20,241 nt of DNA from the IMG/VR virus record IMGVR_UViG_3300010392_000733, positions 1 to 20,241 of that record; one strand, 5' to 3'. The position numbers and the translations under genes are program-made. Source of the stretch: a virus. Shown piece by piece: positions 6,541-12,445 of the stretch. The notes under the pieces are model-generated. The model saw nothing but the letters and a program-made list of their open reading frames with translations, searched no databases and had not been told where the DNA came from. How positions within the stretch are numbered: the first letter of the stretch is position 1; every line of letters starts with the position of its first letter.

Positions 6541-7089
6541 TTAATGCGTAACATCGCCGTCCTCAATATCTGAAACGGCTATATTATTGACCGGGTTTGG
6601 GCCTTGGCTTGTGGTTGGAGAAATAACACCAGGCGCCGGGGACGGACCGATTGTGGCCGTTGTTTGGTGCGTGTGTGAATTATACGAGGAAATTAAACTA
6701 TTTAAAGCGTTTTCAACATCGTTAATTTTTGAGACCAGGTCGTTTATATTAATAAGGCCGCCATTATCGCCGCCGTTGAATATTGTTTCAGGCGTGTCAA
6801 TTAGAACCTTTTCAACTTCAGTACAAACCGAAACAAACCCCGTGTTTTTATTCAAAAAGGTAACTATTACAATCGAATCGGTTTTAGGAATACAGACGAA
6901 ACCTTCAGCCGAATCCAAGGAGGCTTGGAGCCGAACGCCTAAAACTTCGGCGTTTTCCGTTACCGGGGTAACATCACAAGTCCGTTCGTCTTCGTTTATA
7001 TTGGACGCGGTGCCAACAATGGCGTAAATTTCCTCATTGTTTTCGAGGATTTGTTTTATGTATTTCCGTATTTCGGCTGATGCGCTCAT
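6541..7089 (-). CDS. Baseplate assembly protein gpV / spike-like (182 aa)
   Basis: After a helical N-terminus (SASAEIRKYIKQILENNEEI) comes an OB-fold-like stretch, IVGTASNINEDERTCDVTPV and then VLGVRLQAS, GFVCIPKTDSIVIVTFLN, the pattern of gpV/gp45-type spike proteins. The C-terminal half has a helix (INDVENALNSLISSYNSHTH) and a Pro/Gly/Asn-rich tail around GPSPAPGVISPTTSQGPNPV, with SHTHQT where several family members have metal-binding His pairs. The protein would form the trimeric spike under the hub encoded just upstream. Its ATG overlaps the stop of the gpD-like gene. Confidence 0.75.
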   Translation of the reverse strand: MSASAEIRKYIKQILENNEEIYAIVGTASNINEDERTCDVTPVTENAEVLGVRLQASLDSAEGFVCIPKTDSIVIVTFLNKNTGFVSVCTEVEKVLIDTPETIFNGGDNGGLININDLVSKINDVENALNSLISSYNSHTHQTTATIGPSPAPGVISPTTSQGPNPVNNIAVSDIEDGDVTH

Positions 7090-8057
7090 TAGTTTACAGG
7101 CCCTAATTTTACAGTTTGGCGAAAACCGCCCATACCAAACGACTTTGAAACCGCGTCCACTAAATAACGGCCTTCGCGTTCCGGGAATTTTTCATCGCTC
7201 AAATTTACCAAATCGCCTTGAGCGATTGAAGGTTGGCCGAAAGTTTCGAAGTCGCCCCGGTACCCGTCAAAACTTAATTTACTTAATTCGTTGTCGGCAA
7301 AGGTTTGTAAATCCGTTTGGCTGGTTATGTTGTAAGCAAAAAACGTCCGCGTTGAACCGCCATCATCGCCGGCCTCGGCTTCAAGTTTGCTATTATCCGG
7401 CAAAATTGAAATTGCCTTTACTTTTATTTTGACGTCGTCCCGGTTTACATACTCTAAATTACTAGATATTACGTTTCTTTGAAATTTTATTTCGTGTTCG
7501 GTTGCCTCTTCAGGATAATAAGCCAACCCGGACCGCAAAACGCCCGCGCGCATAAAAGAGACTAAACCGTAAGTTTTTTTCAATTCCTCAAGCACTTGAA
7601 CCGCGTTAACCCTGGTTAAACGAAACGCGCCGACGTTGGCCTCAACCGCGTTAACTTGGACCGCACCCTCAACAACATCGGTTAATAAATTCGAAAGGGT
7701 TGTTTCCTTGAAGGCCTTTGTTAACGTTTTTTGTTTCAGTAACCAGGACGCATCTTGGCACTCTATAACCAAAGGCGAATCGGGTAAAACGTTTGAAATA
7801 TACCCCTCAAATTCAGTTATTAAATTAGGAGCATAACCAAGTTCAATTTTAACTTTATCACCTCTTTTAAAAACCGCGTTGGTGCCCGAACCGACCGTAA
7901 TATTTTGGCCGTCTTTCTTGAGTTTGTAAGGTAGGGTAATTATTGCCGTGTCTGTGAAGGTTTTCCAACTTGTTTCAACCTCAACATTATTAACAAACTC
8001 AATAGGTTCTAAATCGGCCCCGTCGTTAAAAGTTATTTTGGATTTTAAAACAAACAT
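7089..8057 (-). CDS. Baseplate hub protein, gpD / T4 gp27-like (322 aa)
   Basis: The product is of the size of P2 gpD/Mu gp44-type hub proteins. Landmarks are VETSWKTFTDTAIITLPYKL (about residue 27-46), FKRGDKVKIELGYAPNLITE followed by FEGYISNVLPDSPLVIECQD (about 63-103), the helix AVQVLEELKKTYGLVSFMRA, and near the C-terminus DFETFGQPSIAQGDLVNLSD followed by GRYLVDAVSKSFG. The 'G-D-x-V-x-i-x-l-G-Y ... F-x-G-Y-I' pattern is diagnostic for the hub fold. It forms the ring joining tube and spike. Start and stop overlap the neighbouring genes by TAATG, which places it in one unit with the small gene upstream and the spike downstream. Confidence 0.82.
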   Translation of the reverse strand: MFVLKSKITFNDGADLEPIEFVNNVEVETSWKTFTDTAIITLPYKLKKDGQNITVGSGTNAVFKRGDKVKIELGYAPNLITEFEGYISNVLPDSPLVIECQDASWLLKQKTLTKAFKETTLSNLLTDVVEGAVQVNAVEANVGAFRLTRVNAVQVLEELKKTYGLVSFMRAGVLRSGLAYYPEEATEHEIKFQRNVISSNLEYVNRDDVKIKVKAISILPDNSKLEAEAGDDGGSTRTFFAYNITSQTDLQTFADNELSKLSFDGYRGDFETFGQPSIAQGDLVNLSDEKFPEREGRYLVDAVSKSFGMGGFRQTVKLGPVN

Positions 8058-8320
8058 TAGGGCGCAAAAATTTTAGCCTCAAGCCTTGAATATAAATCAT
8101 CTTGGTCGGTTGGTGCGGTGCCGTCAAGTTCGTCTATACTATTATAATCCAAGTAATATATTTCGTTGCTCGAGAACACCAATTCAACGCATTTTTCATC
8201 TTTGTCGGCCACTAGAGAACGAATATCACTGTATTTAATACGCGCCTTTTTTCGGTCGTTCGAAACTCCATTCAAATCAATAGAAAAAGAGTCCGCGTGT
8301 GTTGTTATAATTACTCCCAT
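8057..8320 (-). CDS. Small protein upstream of the hub gene (87 aa), unknown
   Basis: The product begins MGVIITTHADSFSIDLNGVS and is an alternation of short strands and a final helix (DDLYSRLEAKIFAP). It is acidic and soluble. The strand pattern around KKARIKYSDIRSLVADKDEK and CVELVFSSNEIYYLDYNSID suggests a small PH-like or beta-sandwich fold, but this is a reading of secondary structure only. The gene starts directly after the -1 frame extension of the preceding protein (stop at 8322) and overlaps the hub gene. A baseplate accessory role is inferred. Confidence 0.65.
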   Translation of the reverse strand: MGVIITTHADSFSIDLNGVSNDRKKARIKYSDIRSLVADKDEKCVELVFSSNEIYYLDYNSIDELDGTAPTDQDDLYSRLEAKIFAP

Positions 8321-8321
8321 T

Positions 8322-8642
8322 TTATTCGTAACTTACATTGGCCGTATTGGTTCCCGACCCGGTTATTACTCCATAAAGACCAGTATAAAAAGACCCACTA
8401 ATTGGCACTGGTTTAATATCATCACCCCCAACATCAACGCGGGCAATTAGGCGGCCGGTTGCATCCAAGCCGTCGTATAATTCCAAAGAACCCGAACCGC
8501 CCGAGGACCCGGTCCTAGAGAGCGACGCGGCGGTAATATAACCGGCGCCGCCTTTTATTAACGCACTTCCTGTAAACGTGACCGGCGTTGTTTCGCCGCG
8601 CTCTTCTCCTAGCCTATAAATGCCCCCCGCGCGCGTGTCGAA
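8322..8642 (-). CDS. -1 frame extension (about 105 codons) of the 8609-9601 protein, beta domain
   Basis: From 8642 the -1 frame relative to the preceding gene is open to a TAA at 8324-8322, next to the ATG of the gene at 8320. No ATG, GTG or TTG occurs until the middle of the frame, so it is unlikely to be an independent gene. It reads GGIYRLGEERGETTPVTFTG, then SALIKGGAGYITAASLSRTG, SLELYDGLDATGRLIARV and ends NTANVSYE. The IYRLG segment is the expected close of the upstream jelly-roll-like fold, and the rest has the 'l-x-l-Y-D-x-x-x-A-T-G' signature of a small beta-sandwich domain recurrent on phage structural proteins. It is expressed by frameshifting at the G6 run, or the frame is broken by an indel. 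Confidence 0.65.
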   Translation of the reverse strand, partial: FDTRAGGIYRLGEERGETTPVTFTGSALIKGGAGYITAASLSRTGSSGGSGSLELYDGLDATGRLIARVDVGGDDIKPVPISGSFYTGLYGVITGSGTNTANVSYE

Positions 8643-9601
8643 TTATGGTCGGTCGTGTTTCCGTTTATATTTAACACCTCAAAACCAACCGGGAAATCAT
8701 ACGTCGCCGCGTATGTTTCGGAGGTTGAAACACGGTGAATAAAATTAGGCCCTTGAAAATAAAACAGTGTACCCGCGTTGTATTGCATTTCGTAAACTGA
8801 AAGGTCCGGCGCGGGGTTGAACGCCCCAACGCTAACGCCATTCCAATCGGCGGCCTCTTCGCGGTGTGTTTCAACGCCGTTTTTTATTGCCACAATATAC
8901 CAAGTTAAATTGGAGTATTCCATAAAAGAACCGTTACGGCTTGCGTTTGCGCCACTTCCTGAAGGGTCAATCGGGTCGAAAACTCCAAACCTTATAACAG
9001 TATTTGGGTCCGCTAAAATTGCCGGATTAAATTGGTTTCCAAAATGCGCGATATTAAACTGGGAAATCATGAAACGCGCCGGCCGGACCGATTGTAGCCT
9101 AATTTCTGAATTTGCCGTCGTTCCAGTACTTAAACGCTGGCTCCCTGGAATACCTGAAACCGCGCCCGTACCTACTCCGTCGGTCAACCATTGCCCGGGG
9201 TTTAACGTGGCTCCCGTAAATTTGTCCCCGGTTAATATAATAGCTTCACCAGTTTTCAAGGCCCCGTTTAGGTCCACAATGGCCCGCGATGCGGTTTGGG
9301 TGTCATGTATTCCAACCGCAAACGGGTCAAAACGCGTAGCATTTTGGCCGTCAAAATAATCGGTGCAAAGTTGAGTAATTAAATCCTCTTTATCAGTGTA
9401 AGCGGGTGTCGTTACTTCAGAAAATTTGAATTTAAATTCGGCCGCTTCATCGTATGGATTTGGCGTTGCTGATAAAATTAAAACCTCGGGTTTTTGCGGG
9501 TCGCATAAAACGTTTAATGTAGGTTGCAAGCACTTTACAATTTCGGCGCCTTCAAAAACAATTATATTACCGTTGTTTTGCTTTGTAAATGTTAAAGCCA
9601 T
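8609..9601 (-). CDS. Putative baseplate/tail structural protein with jelly-roll-like domain (330 aa in frame 0)
   Basis: The first 95 residues (MALTFTKQNNGNIIVFEGAE onwards) resemble a small beta domain. From about 108 a second domain has LNGALKTGEAIILTGDKFTG, SEIRLQSVRPARFMISQFNI, VIRFGVFDP, EYSNLTWYIVAIKNGVETHR, YEMQYNAGTLFYFQGPNFIH and FPVGFEVLNINGNTTDHNST. This is the layout of a concanavalin/jelly-roll module often followed by an '...IxRLG' strand. Here the frame-0 protein ends prematurely at RARGAFIG while the -1 frame continues with IYRLG. It sits between a baseplate-associated gene and the hub operon, and its start overlaps the upstream stop. I propose a baseplate or tail-tip role, without a recognised family. 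Confidence 0.6.
   Translation of the reverse strand: MALTFTKQNNGNIIVFEGAEIVKCLQPTLNVLCDPQKPEVLILSATPNPYDEAAEFKFKFSEVTTPAYTDKEDLITQLCTDYFDGQNATRFDPFAVGIHDTQTASRAIVDLNGALKTGEAIILTGDKFTGATLNPGQWLTDGVGTGAVSGIPGSQRLSTGTTANSEIRLQSVRPARFMISQFNIAHFGNQFNPAILADPNTVIRFGVFDPIDPSGSGANASRNGSFMEYSNLTWYIVAIKNGVETHREEAADWNGVSVGAFNPAPDLSVYEMQYNAGTLFYFQGPNFIHRVSTSETYAATYDFPVGFEVLNINGNTTDHNSTRARGAFIG
8623..8628 (-). other. G6 run: candidate -1 frameshift site or indel site
   Basis: On the minus strand the frame-0 codons are CGC GCG CGG GGG GCA TTT. A one-base backward slip in the run leaves GGG paired with GGG in the P site, then gives GGC ATT TAT AGG, which opens the long -1 frame. The run is also a classical place for a missing base: seven instead of six G would restore one continuous ORF of about 435 codons. 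Confidence 0.55.
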
Positions 9602-10263
9602 TATCTAGATGTTAAATCGCCGGCCGGTTGAAGTTCAAGCGGTTCGTCTGATAAAAGTTGCATTGTAAAAAGTTGGTTGTCGCGCGTGCCCCTGGTTTGT
9701 GGAAAATCGTAATCGGTGACCACAACTTCGGAAATACCAAACAAATCCAGGAACTCCGAAACCACTTTTAAACGCGCGGGCGCGCGTACAATTTGAATCA
9801 TTTCGTTTACGGACGCCTCGGGATAAACATTGCCGTCGCTAACTTTAAAACCGAGAAAATCAGATCCGGCAATTACCCCATTTATTGAGATTGAAAAGTC
9901 GCCCTCTGAAATATATTCTTTTACGGTTCCGTTGCGGCCTTGGGTTGGCGTTGTTACGATGTTTTTTGTTTGCGTTACGGTCATTAAAACCCCGTCCAAC
10001 CGCGCCCGGGGTAAACTAATTGTATTACCTTCAAGGTCGGTCACGTTTTGCGCTGGAAATACCAAATTTGCAAACACCAGCGACCCGAATAACGAAAACC
10101 CCGAATTATTAAATAAAGCGTCTTGGGTTTCGTTGGCAATTTTACGGCCGTCCAATATGGGCACCCCCGTAAATTGTTTGAGCGTGGCCAAGTTTCCAAC
10201 CTTTAAAGGTTGCAACGGCTTTTCAACGTTTATTTGTTTCGTTTCAAGTGGTTTTTCAGCCAT
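9601..10263 (-). CDS. Baseplate-associated protein following the tape measure, probably DUF6046-like (220 aa)
   Basis: The product begins MAEKPLETKQINVEKPLQPL and then has beta-rich sequence with LFGSLVFANLVFPAQNVTDL, LDGVLMTVTQTKNIVTTPTQ, GRNGTVKEYISEGDFSISIN and NEMIQIVRAPARLKVVSEFL. The 'K-x-I-V-x-T...N-G-T-V-K-E-x-I-s-x-x-D-x-x-I-x-I-x-G' signature recalls a Bacteroidota phage family I remember as DUF6046, found between tape measure and hub genes. By position it corresponds to the P2 gpU-/LysM-type adaptor that joins tube end and baseplate hub. The family name is from memory and the function is inferred. Confidence 0.6.
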   Translation of the reverse strand: MAEKPLETKQINVEKPLQPLKVGNLATLKQFTGVPILDGRKIANETQDALFNNSGFSLFGSLVFANLVFPAQNVTDLEGNTISLPRARLDGVLMTVTQTKNIVTTPTQGRNGTVKEYISEGDFSISINGVIAGSDFLGFKVSDGNVYPEASVNEMIQIVRAPARLKVVSEFLDLFGISEVVVTDYDFPQTRGTRDNQLFTMQLLSDEPLELQPAGDLTSR

Positions 10264-10264
10264 T

Positions 10265-11917
10265 TTAACCCTGTATTACATTAACATCGTTTACGGCGGC
10301 CAATAGTGCCCGGGCGACCTCTTCTTTAATTCGGGCCGCGCTTTGTGGTAACGTTTGCGATTGCACGTTCAATTCCTCAACCAGTTTTTCAATAGTTATA
10401 TTGATTTGTTTAGGTGCGGCCGACCGTATTTCGGAAATACCCGCCTTTACATTGCTTTTATCGGTTGTGCCGGTGCCCGCCGCCTTGGTCCGGGTTGCCG
10501 CCTTGGTTAACCCGTCCAAAGCACTTTCTTTTTCAGGTTGGCCCGCGCTTTTAGCTATTTCTTTTGAAAAGCCTTTACCAAACGCCGCGCCGGCCCCGGC
10601 GGTAATATCACCAATCCCGGTCGCCTCTTTTAGTTGGCCCGCCAAGTTGGTCCCGGCCATTTTGTCAATGAGTTTTGCGGTTTGTAAGAGTGGCTGAATT
10701 AAGAAAGTTAAAATCGCTTTACCCCAACGCCTGAAGCCATCAAACAACCGGTCCGAACCTTTACCGGAAAACAGGTCAATTAAGCCGTTGAAAATGTCCT
10801 TGATTGCCATTAGCGGTTCTATTAATATTTTGCCAATATTATCGCCCATAACTTTCATCACCTCCCATAACCCCAACATCGTGGCCCGGAATGTTTCGGA
10901 GTGGCGCCAAAGAACTATAATGCCAATCGTAAGGGCCGCAATTGCCGCAATTACTAACCCGATAGGGTTGGCGGTCATTGCCGCGTTCCAAAGCCATTGA
11001 GCCGCCGTAATTGCTTTTATTTGAATAATGGAAATCGCGACCGGAATATTGAACGCCGCCCAAGCCGCCGCCGCGACGCCGATTGCCATTCCTACGGTTT
11101 GCAAAACTTCAATATTTTCAACAATGGCCAACCCAAAATCAACCATTGCGCCCATTGCTGGGAGTAACGCTTCACCAACCGCAATACCTATTAATTGAAG
11201 TTTACCCAATAACGTGGAAAATTTACCGCCAACGGTTGCGGATTGTTTTTCCATCATATTATTGAAAAGGCCCCCGGCGCTGGTTGCGGATTTAAAAGCG
11301 TCCTCAACCATTTCAAAGGAAATCGCGCCTTTGCTCATTTTTTCTTTTAAACTCCCAACCGATTCGCCTGTTTTACGGCTTATTTCCTGGAGGGGGTTAA
11401 AACCGGCGTTTATTAACTGTAATAGGTCTTGGCCCATTAGTTTGCCGGTTGAGCGAATTTGGCCGAATATTACCCCCATTTCAGACAAGTCTTTGCCGGT
11501 TCCAGCCGAAACATCACCAAGAAATTTCAAGGTGCTTGTTAAATCCTCGGCGGGTATTCCAAAAGCTAAAAGGGTTTTTGAGGCTTTTATTACTTGTTTA
11601 TTATCAAACGGGGTAACGTTGGCAAACTGGTTTAATTTTTCGAGGACCGCGTTTCCCTTTTCAGCCGAACCGGTGAAGGTTGCAAACGCGACCCGGGTTT
11701 GCTCCATTTCAATCCCTAAATTAGCGATTGTTTTAACCGCTTGAACGGCTTGAAAACCAGCAAAGGCCCCGGCGGCCAATTTGCCAAGCCTGGAAAATGT
11801 GCTTTGAGATTTTTTGGCTTTATTATCAACGCCGTCCAAAGCCGCCCCAACCTTTTTGAGTTTGGATGTGACTTTGTCGTTTAATAATATTACAAATTCC
11901 TCAATATTTCTAGCCAT
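10265..11917 (-). CDS. Tail tape measure protein (550 aa)
   Basis: The N-terminus (MARNIEEFVILLNDKVTSKL) leads into the classic tape-measure region: EQTRVAFATFTGSAEKGNAV (about residue 70-90), TPFDNKQVIKASKTLLAFGI, KDLSEMGVIFGQIRSTGKLM and GQDLLQLINAGFNPLQEISR. Hydrophobic segments at roughly 240-345 (AIGVAAAAWAAFNIPVAISI, IGLVIAAIAALTIGIIVLWR) fit membrane-inserting helices of such proteins. The end is Ala/Lys-rich and charged. Length sets tail length: at about 1.5 angstrom per residue, 550 residues imply a short tail of roughly 80 nm. The start overlaps the stop of the chaperone -1 frame extension. Confidence 0.9.
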   Translation of the reverse strand: MARNIEEFVILLNDKVTSKLKKVGAALDGVDNKAKKSQSTFSRLGKLAAGAFAGFQAVQAVKTIANLGIEMEQTRVAFATFTGSAEKGNAVLEKLNQFANVTPFDNKQVIKASKTLLAFGIPAEDLTSTLKFLGDVSAGTGKDLSEMGVIFGQIRSTGKLMGQDLLQLINAGFNPLQEISRKTGESVGSLKEKMSKGAISFEMVEDAFKSATSAGGLFNNMMEKQSATVGGKFSTLLGKLQLIGIAVGEALLPAMGAMVDFGLAIVENIEVLQTVGMAIGVAAAAWAAFNIPVAISIIQIKAITAAQWLWNAAMTANPIGLVIAAIAALTIGIIVLWRHSETFRATMLGLWEVMKVMGDNIGKILIEPLMAIKDIFNGLIDLFSGKGSDRLFDGFRRWGKAILTFLIQPLLQTAKLIDKMAGTNLAGQLKEATGIGDITAGAGAAFGKGFSKEIAKSAGQPEKESALDGLTKAATRTKAAGTGTTDKSNVKAGISEIRSAAPKQINITIEKLVEELNVQSQTLPQSAARIKEEVARALLAAVNDVNVIQG

Positions 11918-12137
11918 TGCCGAACAAGTTATTTAACGAATCATTATCAGCCTTTAAAGTTAGGCAAAATTTTAAATCGTTCCATTCTTTCGCGTATTCA
12001 ATATCCGTCAATAAAGCCAACGTTTCTCGAGTGTACCCAAAATGAAACCGCAAAAGGGCGTCCATTTTTCGGTATTGGTTGGTCGAATCGTTGTTCTCGA
12101 GGCCGTACCGACTTAAAGCTTTGTTATATTGGTTCGC
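11910..12137 (-). CDS. -1 frame extension of the tail assembly chaperone (gpT-like)
   Basis: The -1 frame relative to the gene at 12113-12445 is open from 12137 to a TAG at 11912-11910, which overlaps the tape measure ATG. The encoded sequence is protein-like: YGLENNDSTNQYRKMDALLR followed by HFGYTRETLALLTDIEYAKE and WNDLKFCLTLK. Phage tail chaperones normally come as a short form and a -1 frameshifted long form just upstream of the tape measure gene, as in lambda G/GT, so this is the expected T part. Between the frame's previous stop and the frame-0 stop only 25 bases overlap; the best slip is AAAG at the Lys codon, which is not a strong heptamer. An independent ATG start at 12065 (51 aa) is the alternative. 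Confidence 0.6.
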   Translation of the reverse strand, partial: ANQYNKALSRYGLENNDSTNQYRKMDALLRFHFGYTRETLALLTDIEYAKEWNDLKFCLTLKADNDSLNNLFGNG

Positions 12138-12445
12138 TTAATATCGACCAGTTCGTAGGCTTGCATTGAAGCCGCAACCAATAACGAATCTTTTGTTAAA
12201 ATTTCATCATCACTTTCAACCTCTTCACCGTTTGCAAGTTTGGTTTTTTTAATCCAACAAGAATTTAAAATCTTTTCTCCAGCTTGTAAGTATTTCGGCT
12301 TTTCGTTGCCTTTCGGTTGAATCATTGACAAAACCGCCTCCAGTACGTCCCGGTTCATTTCCTCCAGGTAACACGCGGCAAAAATAGTATTTCCTTTTTC
12401 GTCTTCGCCGTTTTCAACTTCGATTTTATACGCTGCTTTACTCAT
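12113..12445 (-). CDS. Tail assembly chaperone, short form (110 aa)
   Basis: A 110-residue protein (MSKAAYKIEVENGEDEKGNT start) lying between tail tube and tape measure, the conserved place for lambda gpG-type chaperones that coat the tape measure before tube polymerisation. It contains CYLEEMNRDVLEAVLSMIQP and ILNSCWIKKTKLANGEEVES, mixed beta then helix, and ends SMQAYELVDIKRTNITKL. No catalytic motif is seen. It starts downstream of a strong terminator hairpin, so it must be transcribed by read-through or by its own promoter; the A/T-rich leader (12446-12484) holds no clean promoter match. The function follows from order and from the -1 frame extension. Confidence 0.72.
   Translation of the reverse strand: MSKAAYKIEVENGEDEKGNTIFAACYLEEMNRDVLEAVLSMIQPKGNEKPKYLQAGEKILNSCWIKKTKLANGEEVESDDEILTKDSLLVAASMQAYELVDIKRTNITKL

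Follow-up and report, generated by a model that had tools for sequence, protein, structure and literature searches.

Our analysis of the window (the whole 20,241-base virus record, nearly all of whose coding lies on the minus strand) points to a single gene of about 426 codons, the frame of which has quite probably been broken at a run of G by an unprogrammed one-base change in the length of that run. The coding sequence is real, but the split is probably not a designed feature. On the minus strand, a 330-codon ORF (9601-8612, with its stop at 8609-8611) ends in RARGAFIG, and the -1 frame is open from 8642, right after a TAA at 8643-8645, up to the TAA at 8322-8324 (106 codons). Counted from GGIYRLGEE, the -1 extension (8322-8627) comprises 101 codons plus the TAA and ends in NVSYE. 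The two frames overlap by 31 nt (8612-8642), which must contain any frame change and which read CGC GCG CGG GGG GCA TTT in the 0 phase around the G6 run (C6 on the plus strand). This run, the site at which the open frame changes, lies at 8623-8628 in the assembled record, and its 0-frame codons are CGG GGG GCA. These ORF coordinates confirm the sequence-only reading, which had described a 330-residue frame ending in RARGAFIG and continuing as GGIYRLGEE in the -1 frame. Its remark that no ATG, GTG or TTG occurs until mid-frame also proved right, as no start codon occurs in the first half of the extension and the first such codon is a TTG at codon 48 of the 101. That reading was right that the extension adjoins the next gene, whose ATG starts at 8320 and leaves one base between them; it was also right that the two frames form one gene, the joined product (9601 to 8322) having about 426 residues.

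The coding status of the extension was assessed with a codon-usage model built from the window's other genes, with scores expressed as log-odds in bits per codon. Over positions 8325-8627, the -1 frame scored +0.24, the other two forward frames scored -0.44 and -0.79 and contained seven stops each, and the reverse frames ranged from -0.33 to -0.64. In 120-nt windows moved along the gene, the coding frame suggested by codon usage switched at the G6 run. Moreover, only 0.6% of shuffled versions of the extension remained open, and none of the 2324 off-frame windows taken inside the genes of this phage was open for 101 codons. Given the codon usage and these open-frame counts, along with the late first start codon, the extension is coding sequence that lacks a usual start. 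If it is left out, a gap of 288 nt, the largest in the operon, follows the 330-codon ORF, and the extension fills it exactly. Since the frame switches within the overlap, the first start codon comes late and the gap is filled, the extension is part of the upstream gene. Only three G6/C6 runs occur in the whole 20 kb, and the chance of one of them falling inside the 31-nt overlap is about 0.4%; this co-occurrence, together with the confinement of the switch to those 31 nt, indicates that the split very probably arises from the G6 run. The proposal that a single gene changes frame at this run is therefore well supported by the codon-usage switch, the filled gap and the position of the run in the overlap. 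Hence, the gene model is corrected to one broken frame of about 426 codons, in place of a 330-residue protein followed by a spacer of 288 bases.

The genes of the window encode capsid, DUF2586 tail sheath, tape measure, DUF6046 hub and gpD-like hub proteins, as in a contractile-tailed phage, and the hub genes have named relatives in Flavobacterium phages of Winoviridae and in Winogradskyella phage Peternella_1. All on the minus strand, the conserved DUF6046 baseplate hub gene (9601-10263, PHROG 5233) lies upstream of the split gene, and an 87-aa gene (8057-8320) and the conserved gpD-like baseplate hub gene (7089-8057, PHROG 4930) lie downstream. Across about 100 related loci, viral and genomic, the gpD-like hub gene comes directly after DUF6046, and few loci have anything in between. 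Since the flanking hub genes touch in these relatives, the split gene together with the 87-aa gene forms an accessory insertion between them. A common N-terminal domain of the two inserted genes was not supported (hhalign probability 0.45%). The junction is an insertion hot spot, as the hub genes abut in most relatives and several relatives carry differing accessory genes there: the interval between the hub genes is 8057-9601 in the window, 2735-6061 in L087, 1267-4181 in L109, 5398-6341 in L094, 6476-6751 in L066 and 6489-6791 in L125, with arrays of several accessory genes in L087 and L109.

The sequence-only reading had proposed a comparison with homologues, and this comparison yielded one distant relative and no close one. 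The relative, on IMG/VR contig 3300037234_000149 (L094), is an intact 214-codon ORF which occupies the same position between the hub genes and runs without a frame change. Its likeness to the split gene lies in the locus and in the N-terminal domain, the only part in common (its first 85 residues match the N-terminal part of the split gene, of which residues 7-83 align, with 26% identity and E 3.5e-6 in a search within that one record), whereas it is uninterrupted and, after a poly-Gly linker, continues in the same frame into a different, shorter C-terminal part. Comparison of these two sequences suggests that the protein is modular, with a fixed N-terminal domain and variable C-terminal parts. 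Searches with the 330-aa part, with the extension and with the joined protein gave no homologue of comparable layout among viral contigs, genome contigs, INPHARED phages and plasmids, nor in 395 and 296 genomes of the phylum Bacteroidota and 46 further genomes or records. The sole viral-contig match to the extension (L141, 22 residues) was rejected as a chance match, as it lies in a GC-rich, unrelated locus. The closest DUF6046 match (58% identity) is on L003, which is also the closest by its tail chaperone; this 5-kb contig stops inside DUF6046, before the locus.

Within the 330-codon part, the N-terminal domain (approximately residues 1-85) is followed by a middle region, in which residues 152-246 gave the only Pfam match of the protein, to the SO2946-like C-terminal domain (SO2946-like_C, PF22237; E 0.0047). 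The likeness is a sub-threshold match, and the difference lies in the score (17.4 bits against a curated cut-off of 27 bits, and 18.2 bits, still below 27, for the isolated middle domain) and in the coverage of profile positions 3-89 of 163 only. Adding the extension did not lengthen the match, and the PF22237 relatives in Bacteroidota genomes (L142-L144) gave no useful alignment to the middle region. The extension itself matched no family in Pfam, PHROGs or NCBIfam, Ig-like and carbohydrate-binding families included, and had no meaningful match in the PDB (best E 1.9). Its AlphaFold model is all-beta, with low confidence (mean pLDDT 49), and the models of the protein were likewise of low confidence and too poor for fold searching. 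The jelly-roll, Ig-like or glycan-binding fold suggested earlier thus gained no support from family matches, the PDB or modelling, and no confirmation was found for the 'IxRLG' last-strand motif. The locus is best read as one accessory structural gene that a contractile-tailed Bacteroidota phage carries, along with the 87-aa gene, between its hub genes; the product would be a modular, beta-rich part mounted on the baseplate via the N-terminal domain and perhaps binding the host surface.

Under the proposed programmed frameshift, a small share of the ribosomes would move back by one base at GGG in GGGGGG, giving a 330-residue major product and a 426-residue form that carries a C-terminal beta domain. 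We consider such a programmed slip unlikely, even though the 0-frame ORF overlaps for only 31 nt with a -1 ORF that lacks an early start codon, this short overlap holds the G6 run, and the extension is coding. After a slip the P-site codon would again be GGG, so that a single-codon slip of Gly-tRNA on G_GGG would be possible without a tandem heptamer. Precedents do exist: programmed frameshifting is described as adding Ig-like or carbohydrate-binding C-terminal extensions to phage structural proteins, as in the phage T3 capsid and in the major tail proteins of A118/A500/PSA, SPP1 and 936 phages (PMC5009743, PMC6669499), so that the earlier statement that such additions are known is correct. 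The split gene resembles these systems in that a structural-region gene is followed by about 100 codons in another frame that look beta-rich; however, no tandem slip site, stimulator, significant domain match or conserved split was found for it, and it is accessory and lies between baseplate hub genes, whereas the precedents cited concern high-copy capsid and major tail or tail-tube proteins (PMC5009743, PMC6669499). A survey of the overlap (8612-8642) revealed no in-phase X_XXY_YYZ slippery heptamer, and many in-phase heptamers of this kind occur uneventfully elsewhere in the genes of the window. Tandem -1 re-pairing at CGG GGG GCA fails in the A site, where GCA would have to shift to GGC. 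Neither the 83 nt downstream nor the 101 nt spanning the site folded better than shuffled sequences (z of +1.08 and +0.24, respectively; pseudoknots lie outside the folding model). No relative found has the split; the single distant one, the L094 counterpart, is one ORF with a different C-terminus.

The tail assembly chaperone of the same operon shows what real -1 sites look like within this group of Bacteroidota phages. It is encoded on the minus strand by a 110-aa frame (12113-12445) and a 75-codon -1 extension (11913-12445 as a whole), and this G/GT-type frameshift is similar to the split gene in being a -1 overlap of two coding segments. Unlike the G6 site, for which no such conservation was found, the chaperone overlap is kept in each of the 25 related loci, the window among them, that yielded both halves, and nearly always lies on A_AAA_AAG/A (xxA AAA AAG or AAA). 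The chaperone site in the window is degenerate (ATA ACA AAG CTT TAA), and that in L003, the nearest relative, reads GAA AAG. Since the overlap is retained in every locus, nearly always on this motif, real frameshifting in the lineage is, as judged from the aligned sequences, conserved and mostly canonical, and the G6 site appears to be neither. Because no in-phase heptamer, stimulatory structure or conserved split was found, the L094 gene is intact and the -1 sites of the group are different, we infer that the break is unprogrammed.

A one-base change in the length of the G run, by error or by mutation, is a simpler cause than a programmed slip. The frame break in the record would then be a one-base length difference in the G homopolymer, stemming from a sequencing or assembly error or from a recent indel; the proposal of a one-base error or mutation is thus favoured, together with the corrected gene model, and either origin fits these data. 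Against an unprogrammed break it may be held that Gly-tRNA could re-pair in the P site, that no close homologue was found, that PMC5009743 offers a precedent, and that the remaining genes of the window are free of unexplained frame breaks. Errors are therefore not frequent across the contig as a whole, and there is room for a real indel, phase variation or a programmed slip. Under phase variation, the G run would change length by slippage during replication and the gene would alternate heritably between short and full states within the phage population, the contig having captured the short state. Runs of poly-G are classic phase-variation tracts, and the protein is accessory and possibly surface-exposed, but six to seven G's are short for a contingency tract, and a pattern search for the junction with G runs of variable length gave no match and no second variant among records that may exclude those nearly identical to the window; we regard this explanation as decidedly improbable. 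That the extension should be a small gene in its own right, with a non-standard start, is scarcely credible: ATT is found at codon 3 and further ATT/ATA codons follow, but no ATG, GTG or TTG precedes codon 48, and the coding signal sets in at the G run itself, so that no spacer follows the upstream stop.

There is a small but real chance that the short G run acts as a switch, translational or heritable, by which a Bacteroidota myophage makes an accessory protein mounted on its baseplate in two forms, one having a C-terminal beta domain and one lacking it, and thereby varies host-surface binding. If the split were programmed or phase-variable, the addition of C-terminal domains, so far a matter of high-copy capsid and tail-tube proteins, would extend to an accessory protein of the baseplate region. 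As a separate observation, the minus-strand gene at 680-3, truncated where the contig ends, has a tandem heptamer, G_GGG_GGT, in phase at its own G6 run (69-64).
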